Of a stretch of 64,000 bases of DNA, positions 14,630 to 29,041 are shown piece by piece. The position numbers and the translations under genes were made by a program. The notes beneath the pieces were generated by a model, which saw nothing but the letters and a program-made list of their open reading frames with translations, was not told the origin of the DNA and did not search any database. The DNA is taken from assembly GCF_003697845.1 (NCBI RefSeq), contig NZ_RDQE01000001.1, positions 248,001 through 312,000 on the forward strand, given 5' to 3'. How positions within the stretch are numbered: the first letter of the stretch is position 1; the number at the start of each line of letters is the position of its first letter. The stretch comes from Halobellus captivus (GTDB lineage: Archaea > Halobacteriota > Halobacteria > Halobacteriales > Haloferacaceae).

Positions 14630-15190
14630 GTGTTCAGCCTCAACGTCCCGATCCCGCCCGCTGTGGGGCGGCTCGCCGCCGATCTCCAGCCGAAACTCTC
14701 GGGGTTCGATCGGGTCCGCGACCGACACACGCTCGTGTGTAAGCGGTTCGGCGTCGCGGACGTGAGCGCCAGCGAGGACGTGGCCTCGGGCACGGTCGGC
14801 GACCCGCCATCGCGGCCGATCGCCCTCGACCGGCTCCGCGACCGGCTTCGGCGATCGGTCGCGTCGGTCGATCCCTTCGCGGTCGCGGTCGTCGGGGTCG
14901 ACGCGTTCGAGACGCCCGCGTCCGGCTCCGGGCCCGTCGTCTACCTCGTCGTCGAGAGCGACGGGCTCGTCCGACTTCACCGCCGGCTGTGCGCGGAGTA
15001 CGGCGCGATCGAGGGGATCGAGGGCGAGGCGTACGTCCCCCACGTCACGCTTGCGCGCGGCGGGGAGACGGCGGCCGCGAGCCGCCTCGTCGACGCCGGC
15101 GTCGAGTTCGAGCCGATCCGCTGGCGGGTCCACGCGTTGGACCTGTACGACCCCGAGTTCCGCGAGGTCGCGGCGACGCTCGAACTGTGA
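14630..15190 (+). CDS. 2H phosphoesterase, 2'-5' RNA ligase-like
   Basis: A 186-residue cytoplasmic protein with the two catalytic HxT/S motifs of the 2H superfamily: RHTLVCKRF (His33, Thr34-Leu35) and VPHVTLARGG (His138). Members hydrolyse or form 2'-5' or cyclic phosphodiester bonds in RNA or nucleotides. The start is GTG; there is no suitable ATG. It is different from the canonical ThpR at 56984, so this genome has at least two such enzymes. The first motif lacks the usual x-S/T spacing exactly (HTL), so activity should be treated as probable, not certain. Confidence 0.75.
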   Translation: MFSLNVPIPPAVGRLAADLQPKLSGFDRVRDRHTLVCKRFGVADVSASEDVASGTVGDPPSRPIALDRLRDRLRRSVASVDPFAVAVVGVDAFETPASGSGPVVYLVVESDGLVRLHRRLCAEYGAIEGIEGEAYVPHVTLARGGETAAASRLVDAGVEFEPIRWRVHALDLYDPEFREVAATLEL

Positions 15191-26700: not shown

Positions 26701-28080
26701 CTACAGGATCACGTCGCGAGTCTGGAGCACGTAGTAGACGACGAGCAGCGCCGCGATGGCGTACTGGCCGAGGTCGACGTCGTCGTACTCGCCGGTCGCG
26801 ACCTTGATCAGCGGGTACGCGACGATCCCGGCCGCCAGGCCGTCGGCGATCGAGTAGGCGAACGGCATCACGGTGACGGTGAGTCCGGCGGACACCGCCC
26901 ACGCCGGGTCGGACCAATCGACCTCGGTGACCCCCTGGAGCATCATCACGCCGACGACGATGACGGCGATGAAGGAGGCGTACGCGGGGATGGCCGCGAC
27001 GACGGGTACCGCGAGAAGCGAGAGGAGGAAGCCGGCGGCGACGACGAGCGCGGTGAGACCGGTGCGACCGCCCTCCTCGACCCCGGCCGACGACTCGATG
27101 TACGTCGTCACCGTGGAGGTGCCGAGCATCGCGCCGACGGTGGTGCCGACCGCGTCGGCCATCAGCGGCTCGTCCATCTCCGGGAGGTCGCCGTCCTCGT
27201 CGAGGAAGTCGCCGAACTGCGAGACGCCGATGAGCGTCCCGGCGGTGTCGAAGAAGTCGACGAAGAAGAACGTGAAGACGACGAGCGTGAAGGTGAGCGG
27301 TTCGATGTCGGCGAGCCCCTCGAGGAACGCGCCCGCGAGCGGGGTGATGTCGTACTGGGCGGCCGGCAGCGACTCGGGCGTGACGACGCCGCGCTCGAAG
27401 ACCCCGCCGAGCGTGAGCAGCCAGCCGGAGAGCGCGGTGGTCAGGATGCCGAGGATGACCGCGCCCGTGATCCCGCGGGCCCACAGCGCGAAGGTCAACC
27501 CCAGCCCGAGGATCCCGAGGATCGACCACGGGTTTCCGAACACCGCGCCGAGCGTGACGAGCGTCGCGTCGTCGGGAACGACGAGCCGGAGCTCCTGAAG
27601 CCCGATGAACAGGAGGAACAGTCCGATACCCGCGCCGACCGAACGCTTGACGGGCTCGGGGAACAGCCGGATCACGTACTTGCGTGCGCCGACCGCGGTC
27701 AACGCGATGAACAACAGCCCCTCGACGAAGACGGCGGCGAGCGCCGTCTGCCACGGGATGCCCAGACCGATCACCACGGTGAACGCGAAGAACGCGTTGA
27801 GTCCCATTCCGGGCGCGAGCCCGAACGGCCGGTTGGCGTAGACGGCCATCACCAGCGTCCCGGCCGCGGACGCGAGGATCGTCGCGATGGCGATCATCTG
27901 GACCACCTCGATGAACTCGTATCCCGGGATCTGGATCGCCTCCGCGAGGATGAACGGGTTCACCACGATGATGTACGACATGGCGAGGAACGTCGTGATC
28001 CCCGCAACCAACTCGGTCCGGAAGTCCGATCCGTGCCCCTCGACGTCGAACCGTGCCGTCAACGTGTCTACGATCCCCAT
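26701..28080 (-). CDS. NCS2 (AzgA-type) purine permease
   Basis: A 459-residue membrane transporter of the hypoxanthine/guanine/adenine subgroup of NCS2. Recognisable segments: DFRTELVAGITTFLAMSYIIVVNPFIL near the start, the substrate-site helix GLNAFFAFTVV, FFVDFFDTAGTLIGVSQ, ESSAGVEEGGRTGLTALVVA in the second half. Proton-coupled uptake of purine bases is the likely role. The gene for a helix-turn-helix phosphoribosyltransferase lies just upstream on the same strand, and a palindrome separates them, so purine-responsive control is plausible. Confidence 0.92.
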   Translation of the reverse strand: MGIVDTLTARFDVEGHGSDFRTELVAGITTFLAMSYIIVVNPFILAEAIQIPGYEFIEVVQMIAIATILASAAGTLVMAVYANRPFGLAPGMGLNAFFAFTVVIGLGIPWQTALAAVFVEGLLFIALTAVGARKYVIRLFPEPVKRSVGAGIGLFLLFIGLQELRLVVPDDATLVTLGAVFGNPWSILGILGLGLTFALWARGITGAVILGILTTALSGWLLTLGGVFERGVVTPESLPAAQYDITPLAGAFLEGLADIEPLTFTLVVFTFFFVDFFDTAGTLIGVSQFGDFLDEDGDLPEMDEPLMADAVGTTVGAMLGTSTVTTYIESSAGVEEGGRTGLTALVVAAGFLLSLLAVPVVAAIPAYASFIAVIVVGVMMLQGVTEVDWSDPAWAVSAGLTVTVMPFAYSIADGLAAGIVAYPLIKVATGEYDDVDLGQYAIAALLVVYYVLQTRDVIL

Positions 28081-28110: not shown

Positions 28111-28158
28111 CATAAGTATTACTACCTGAAATAAGCAGATATACACAAATGTGCATAT
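28111..28158 (-). promoter_or_regulatory. TATA box and palindromic operator candidate of purine permease
   Basis: On the minus strand TACTTATG (around 28111-28118) stands about 35 bases before the permease ATG. Farther upstream, ATATACACA and TGTGCATAT (28139-28158 on +) form a near-perfect palindrome (8 of 9 pairs) with a 2-base centre. Its place about 60-78 bases upstream of the start and its symmetry fit a dimeric regulator. Confidence 0.55.
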
Positions 28159-28244
28159 AGATCTCGTCGAGCTGTCGTTTCATCGTCAAAAACTGGTCGA
28201 ACGTGCGAACGGCGTGGTCCGCGACGACGCGATCGGCCCGGTTC

Positions 28245-28958
28245 CTACTCGAAGGTCGTCAGCGCGCCGACGGGGGCGTCGGTGATCTCGCGGGCCCGGC
28301 GCATGCCCTCGTCGCCGACGGCGATGAGCGTGAACACGCCGCCGACGTCGGCGTCGGCCTGTAACGCGATGTCTAAGAGGAGCTCCTGGGTCTCGCCCGA
28401 TCGGATCAGGTCGTCGACAACGAGGACGGTGTCGCCCGCCTCGATGGCGCGTTTCGGCAGGTAATAGGTGAGTTCGATGCCGGAGGCGAGCCGCTGGCGC
28501 GACTCGATGAACTCCTCGACCGCGGTCTCCTTCGACTTCTTGGCGTACGCCAGCCGGGCGTCGAAGAAGGAGGCCATCGCCGCACCGAGAGTGATCCCGT
28601 CGGTCGCGGCGGTGAGCACCACGTCGGGCGAGGCGAACTCGAACGTCTCGGCCGCGACTGGCGCGACCAGGTCGAGGAAGGACTGATCGAAGACGACGCC
28701 GCTGTTGTCCACGTATCCCTCGTCGTCGAAGGCGACGCGGGCGACCAGTTCGTCGGCGAGCGCGTCGCGGCCGACCTCGGAGACGACCTCGCGCGCCCGG
28801 TCGGCGCCGGGGAGCACGTGGCCGTTCACGTACCGGTTCAGATCGCCCGCCGGCAGCCCCGTGAGCGTCGACAGCTCCTCGTACGTCCGCGTCTCCTTCA
28901 ACGTCCGCAACACGGCGACCGCCTGTAACTGGAGGGCCGCCTTCTCTGCGCGGTTCAT
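28245..28958 (-). CDS. HTH-phosphoribosyltransferase regulator, probably purine-sensing
   Basis: A 237-residue protein with two parts. Residues 24-60 form a helix-turn-helix like XRE domains (TYEELSTLTGLPAGDLNRYVNG). Residues 85-237 form a phosphoribosyltransferase domain with the PRPP-binding signature VLVVDDLIRSGET (178-190) and an ATDGITLGAAM loop. This layout recalls bacterial PurR and archaeal GfcR, where PRPP or a purine is the signal. It is different in its N-terminus from GfcR as I remember it. Placed upstream of an NCS2 purine permease with a palindrome between them, it probably controls that gene. It could instead be a true salvage enzyme. Confidence 0.85.
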   Translation of the reverse strand: MNRAEKAALQLQAVAVLRTLKETRTYEELSTLTGLPAGDLNRYVNGHVLPGADRAREVVSEVGRDALADELVARVAFDDEGYVDNSGVVFDQSFLDLVAPVAAETFEFASPDVVLTAATDGITLGAAMASFFDARLAYAKKSKETAVEEFIESRQRLASGIELTYYLPKRAIEAGDTVLVVDDLIRSGETQELLLDIALQADADVGGVFTLIAVGDEGMRRAREITDAPVGALTTFE

Positions 28959-29041
28959 GTTAATGATCGTGATCGCACAAGTATGAATACATCGAAGTTC
29001 CGTCGCGTGAGTGTATCCACGAACGACGAACTCCGAGGCGG

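Follow-up and report, generated by a model that had tools for sequence, protein, structure and literature searches.

We analysed a window of 64,000 nucleotides from Halobellus captivus (the whole stretch of DNA under study), in which a permease gene and an HTH-phosphoribosyltransferase (HTH-PRTase) gene lie in the same direction, the regulator upstream, with a palindrome between them. This arrangement had been proposed in a sequence-only reading and was borne out in each part: the permease is of the NCS2 type, the upstream regulator-like gene encodes both a four-helix HTH and an intact PRPP motif, and the near-perfect palindrome lies between the two genes with a single mismatch. The features of the locus, by window position, are as follows.

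26701..28080, minus strand: NCS2-type permease gene (PF00860; 117.2 bits, cut-off 27, E 9.4e-34), 459 aa, the presumed target; syntenic in most orthologous loci.
28111..28121, minus strand: TATA-like element TAATACTTATG, 18 bp downstream of the box; inferred by analogy with the CTTAT-type boxes of orthologous promoters.
28139..28158, no strand assigned: palindrome ATATACACA-AA-TGTGCATAT, two 9-base arms with one mismatch.
28140-28157, minus-strand reading: box TATGCACATTTGTGTATA, the inner 18 bp of the palindrome; two mismatches against TANNCACGTTCGTGNNTA; 59 bp before the permease ATG.
28198..28205, minus strand: half-site CACGTTCG, whose CAC lies upstream of the palindrome's CAC by 52 bp, or about five helical turns; this spacing is seen again in other permease promoters.
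28245..28958, minus strand: HTH-PRTase regulator gene (NF006328/PRK08558; 350.9 bits, cut-off 184), a proposed archaeal PurR-like repressor.
28389..28427, minus strand: codons of the PRPP loop VLVVDDLIRSGET (residues 178-190), conserved in orthologues; D182 aligned to D203 of Bacillus subtilis PurR.
28827..28850, minus strand: codons of residues 37-44, predicted from the AlphaFold2 model to form the recognition helix of the XRE-like HTH.
28976..28979, minus strand: TGTG, the secondary half-site at position +52 relative to the start of the regulator-gene box.
29014..29031, minus strand: degenerate box (four mismatches, one of its halves intact), 55 bp upstream of the ATG of the regulator gene; autoregulation is proposed.

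No second match to the palindrome at up to three mismatches occurs in the window, where 0 of 100 shuffles gave one, or anywhere in the 3.59-Mb genome. One window match to the box with two mismatches, at 14724-14741, lies inside an open reading frame and was treated as chance.

The HTH-phosphoribosyltransferase protein

The regulator, a protein of 237 aa, has an XRE-like four-helix HTH fused to a type I PRTase domain with an intact PRPP loop. Pfam detected the PRTase domain (PF00156) alone, and the full-length match to NF006328 (residues 1-236) far exceeds the curated cut-off of that model. In the AlphaFold2 model (pLDDT 88.2 overall) we observed a four-helix N-terminus followed by a PRTase fold, with a pLDDT of 91.7 over residues 1-75. 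When these residues were searched alone, they matched mostly XRE-type HTH chains (2o38_B, Z 7.2, rmsd 2.9, 65 aligned), but the modest Z score makes this weak evidence for so small a domain, and the best Foldseek E value was 0.42. For the whole protein, the closest solved structure both by sequence (E 1e-10, residues 55-214) and by Foldseek is B. subtilis PurR; the top Foldseek match was PurR with cPRPP (1p4a_B, E 1.8e-13), the closest fold having an HTH. In structural alignment with VIA-align, scores differed by only a few units between XPRT (Z 22), PurR (Z 19.7; 194 aligned, rmsd 4.8) and APRT (Z 20). Of the alignments listed, that of PurR was the only one to begin at residue 1 of the regulator.

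Across 17 orthologues, the recognition-helix segment (residues 34-50) has a mean identity of 99.3%, compared to 80.7% in the PRTase part. Both the PRPP loop and the flexible loop are conserved in the same set, and V181 to T190 of the PRPP loop are invariant. Four named Halorubrum genomes have loci that are 100% identical over the best segment of the regulator protein. In a phylum sample of 294 genomes, the NF006328 family scored above cut-off in 46, all within the same order as the window. Sulfolobus acidocaldarius, a control genome far from the haloarchaea, also scored above this cut-off, as did the Haloferax volcanii genome.

A box upstream of purine genes and its second half-site

Comparing the regulator and permease promoters of orthologous loci, we observed that CACGTTCGTG recurs with outer TA steps. 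The box consensus used in searches was TANNCACGTTCGTGNNTA, which spans 18 bp with 14 set positions. With up to three mismatches, it was found upstream of the permease in 43 of the 74 named loci that have a measurable gap between the genes, where permuted consensuses would give about 1, often at 57-62 bp or about 111 bp from the permease start, compared with 59 bp in the window. Upstream of the regulator gene, it was present in 43/80 named orthologues, mostly at 55-58 bp and again with about 1 expected from permuted consensuses. A lack of conservation of the palindrome would have refuted the original proposal, which was not refuted on this ground; such conservation across loci is better evidence against chance than the uniqueness of the palindrome. 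At one locus (L025), about four box-like units (CACGCTCATGAGAAAT...) stand in tandem upstream of the regulator gene.

In the Halobellus genome, the pattern CACRNNYGTGNNTA gave 17 matches (5 for the control), and those near gene starts precede purL, folD, purF, purS-purQ and the permease. The purL gene has a second, weaker box 43 bp away, and the purS-purQ box has a divergent formyltetrahydrofolate-deformylase-like gene on its other side. A search that allowed mismatches added purK. The earlier reading had suggested looking for the palindrome at other purine genes; in this genome the box precedes purL, purF, purS/Q, folD and purK. With up to three mismatches there are 144 matches, compared to 56 for the reversed control, which is too noisy to define a regulon alone. 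Six two-mismatch sites (L208, L211, L213, L215, L216 and L218) lie inside open reading frames and were treated as chance, and for five further sites (L206, L207, L210, L212 and L214) no convincing target was found.

In 118 genomes that carry the regulator, we counted 168 exact cores CACGTTCGTGNNTA (11 for the reversed-pattern control), and in 27 genomes without it 7 (control 5). Searches with 16 purine or one-carbon query proteins placed none of these 7 close to a match. We sampled every third or fourth of the 139 matches listed among 164, excluding the Halobellus genome and the regulator-less genomes (n = 40). Of these cores, 34 lie upstream of purine, one-carbon or purine-transport genes. 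De novo purine genes account for 25 (purS 12, purF 6, purL 3, purB/purH 2, purD 1, purK 1), transport and regulator genes for 4 (NCS2 permease 2, xanthine-type permease 1, regulator 1), and the one-carbon genes are folD (3), gcvT (1) and serA (1). The gcvT (L269) and serA (L256) boxes suggest that the supply of one-carbon units from glycine and serine belongs to the regulon. No target was assigned to 4/40 sampled cores (L248, L249, L260 and L268), and 2/40 are ambiguous. These last two are exact cores at L263 (around 1506, by a QueT-family transporter gene) and L272 (around 1510, by a 5'-nucleotidase-like gene), and the regulon could include deazapurine uptake and the breakdown of nucleotides.

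The box is accompanied by a second element at a fixed distance. A CACR lies at exactly +46 from the box start in 34/39 purS promoters and in 25/33 purF promoters, which puts it 42 bp, or roughly four helical turns, away from the box's CACG. The TATA-like motif lies at +38 in purS promoters and at +61 in purF promoters, so the constant spacing tracks the box and not the promoter. Regulator promoters have a YGTG at +52/+53 in 30 of the 43 with a box, again 42-43 bp from its counterpart, and 19/54 permease promoters have CACR at +56, where the 52-bp distance corresponds to five turns. The secondary half-site abuts the TATA element, on its upstream side in purF and on its downstream side in purS. 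From spacing by whole turns we infer, without binding data, that two units bind cooperatively to the same face of the DNA, next to or across TATA.

Joint loss of regulator and box

We compared purine promoters between genomes with and without the regulator. For purS, the regulator set comprised 43 genomes (18 among the 30 best-scoring and the next 25 by score); for purF, it comprised 44 of the 118 regulator genomes, namely 27 from the search or the Halobellus genome itself and 17 chosen for family spread after the match list had been seen. All 27 regulator-less genomes were included in both comparisons. At up to three mismatches, the box was found upstream of purS in 39/43 genomes with the regulator and in 0/27 without (null expectations of about 0.9 and 0.4), at a fixed gap of 58-60 bp in the 39. 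The corresponding purF counts were 34/44 and 0/27 (null of about 1 and 0.6). At the same threshold, the box was missing in 4/43 regulator genomes before purS and in 10/44 before purF. Three of the four lacking the purS box belong to one genus, g39, in which the regulator is diverged; boxes were present around the regulator-permease pair in each of the four g39 genomes whose regulator locus was read (other genes were not read).

In 22 of the 27 regulator-less genomes, purF lies directly behind a ribosomal protein gene, which from its translated C-terminus we take to be rpl37e, and has no promoter of its own (the purF loci read in regulator-less genomes were L163-L185, L065, L071, L072 and L081). 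Purine synthesis in these 22 genomes thus seems tied to a ribosomal protein operon, and because of this arrangement purS provides the cleaner and fairer test. In regulator-less genomes, the region upstream of purS keeps its TATA-like element and lacks the box alone. The secondary half-site shows the same pattern, with a CACR near this position in 37/43 purS promoters with the regulator compared to 1/27 without. Two of three genomes of the regulator-less genus g35 (L326 and L329) have half a box at the expected purS place, as if it had decayed recently.

Presence and absence of the regulator both occur inside the families f1, f3, f4 and f8 (taxonomy codes), so that, if these families are natural groups, four or more changes are likely. 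The genomes are related and the box counts are not independent events; independent losses were not tallied on a species tree. Judged from these comparisons of promoters and gene content, the link between regulator and box appears strong. The PurR-like purine control unit proposed for the permease locus is supported and can be widened to a whole regulon, as the box lies upstream of purine genes genome-wide and is lost together with the regulator.

Proposed mechanism, alternatives and known regulators

We hold with good confidence that a PurR-like purine regulator, acting through the box and the second half-site, controls purine synthesis in most haloarchaea, a reading in which binding, direction of control and ligand are inferred. 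The sequence data themselves establish how the protein is built from its domains, what the box is, which genes are its targets, how its elements are spaced and that regulator and box are lost jointly. In the proposed mechanism, the protein, presumably a dimer, would bind the box TANNCACGTTCGTGNNTA through its XRE-like HTH, and a second contact at the half-site, roughly four (or five) helical turns from the box, would complete an operator beside or across the TATA box. Since the secondary element abuts TATA, occupancy should impede TBP/TFB and so block the basal transcription machinery; repression is therefore likely, in the absence of expression data. The putative targets would be purF, purL, purS/Q, purD, purK, purB and purH, the one-carbon genes folD, gcvT and serA, purine permeases and the regulator itself.

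The PRTase domain may serve as a repurposed ligand pocket through which purine status is read as PRPP or a purine nucleotide. The presence of D120 in the PPi loop, where PurR has K, may speak against PRPP. In Halobacterium, purine-gene expression is reported to be negatively correlated with purine levels, with an unidentified factor or some other mechanism given as the cause (PMC4540570; PMC3794607), and a trmB mutant is described in which purine-gene expression is high, purines are low and PRPP is presumed lacking (PMC4540570). In our inference, this picture fits a purine co-repressor better than induction by PRPP as in Bacillus.

We weighed this reading against several alternatives. The protein could be a working adenine (or other purine) phosphoribosyltransferase with a vestigial HTH, the box being owned by another regulator. 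The equivalog name and score of NF006328, the conserved PRPP and flexible loops and a fold near the XPRT and APRT enzymes (Z 20-22) would all fit an enzyme. However, the recognition segment of the HTH is the most conserved part measured, and an enzyme leaves unexplained why the box flanks the regulator gene and vanishes with it in several families; we consider this explanation improbable. An active salvage enzyme that doubles as the regulator and senses its own substrates is harder to dismiss, as nothing in the sequence excludes catalysis and the same closeness to XPRT/APRT applies, but it still appears unlikely. A xanthine-type permease was a target in just one sampled genome (L262), and this genome has a separate gene for an HPT-like enzyme, so salvage need not rest on the regulator protein; nor do any activity data back this alternative.

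The same box and regulon could also serve an activator rather than a repressor. In purF and purS the main box is placed upstream of TATA, and archaeal TrmB is reported to activate from such a position (PMC10817205). Against this stand the secondary half-site, which adjoins TATA on either side depending on the gene and disappears from purS promoters along with the regulator, and the published drop of purine-gene expression with purine level (PMC4540570); we would give activation only a minor chance. Control by TrmB itself at the box sites is very hard to credit. TrmB does affect purine genes in Halobacterium (PMC3794607), but its motif TACT-N7-8-GAGTA is unlike the box and was hardly seen in the 200-bp purS upstream regions (0/43 at zero mismatches, 2/43 at one), and the published work itself concludes that a TrmB-independent regulator acts (PMC3794607; PMC4540570).

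The repressor reading bears on a gap left by two Halobacterium salinarum studies, which concluded that purine synthesis genes answer to purine levels via an unknown TrmB-independent factor, and one of which reported being unable to identify a PurR homologue from sequence (PMC3794607; PMC4540570). We did not find an earlier description of the regulator or the box in the open PMC literature; preprints and most subscription papers were outside its scope. A candidate protein, its operator and a target list for most haloarchaea now make the question of purine control testable in a laboratory strain.

Among known systems, GfcR (PRK02277), a haloarchaeal HTH-PRTase regulator of sugar metabolism, shares the fusion of HTH and PRTase domain; the box described here is instead tied to purine genes. 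Assignment of the regulator to the GfcR type (NF002620, PRK02277) was rejected at 19.2 bits against a cut-off of 115, compared to 350.9 bits for NF006328, in agreement with the prior impression that its N-terminus differs from that of haloarchaeal GfcR. The regulator is a full-length member of NF006328, 'adenine phosphoribosyltransferase', which is an enzyme by curated naming with catalysis inferred from the name only, yet the present evidence points to a transcription regulator and suggests that this large family is misnamed as a salvage enzyme. H. salinarum TrmB also affects purine genes but is another protein with another motif.

The closest parallel is B. subtilis PurR (TIGR01743; PDB 1p4a, 1o57 and 7rmw). 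Both proteins combine an HTH with a type I PRTase domain, and both systems use an operator of two spaced elements. The Bacillus PurR regulon, like the haloarchaeal one, takes in purine genes, one-carbon genes and permeases. By score the haloarchaeal regulator is no member of the PurR family (46.9 bits against a TIGR01743 cut-off of 258.7). PurR has an N-terminal domain of its own, a winged helix, whereas the regulator probably has an XRE-like four-helix HTH, although the N-terminal matches are weak. The PRPP-loop aspartate D203 of PurR corresponds to D182 (D182/D183 align with D203/D204), and loss of D203 is reported to weaken PRPP competition about 100-fold (PMC8789054). The PPi-loop difference at D120 sets the proteins apart, as do the operators: an 18-bp box CACGTTCGTG with 42 or 52 bp spacing in haloarchaea, and a pair of 14-bp PurBoxes with a 16-17 bp spacer in Bacillus (PMC8789054). 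On one strand, the centre of the purF and purS boxes reads CGAACG, and PurBoxes are described with a central CGAA (PMC8789054); because the HTH types seem different, this likeness is probably a coincidence. On this comparison, bacteria and archaea would have arrived at the same control logic independently. In conclusion, we lean towards the view that PurR was invented twice, the haloarchaeal version being a fusion of an XRE-type HTH to a phosphoribosyltransferase, carried by a misnamed family, that would govern a full purine and one-carbon regulon through composite operators phased by whole helical turns around TATA, and would be the missing TrmB-independent regulator.
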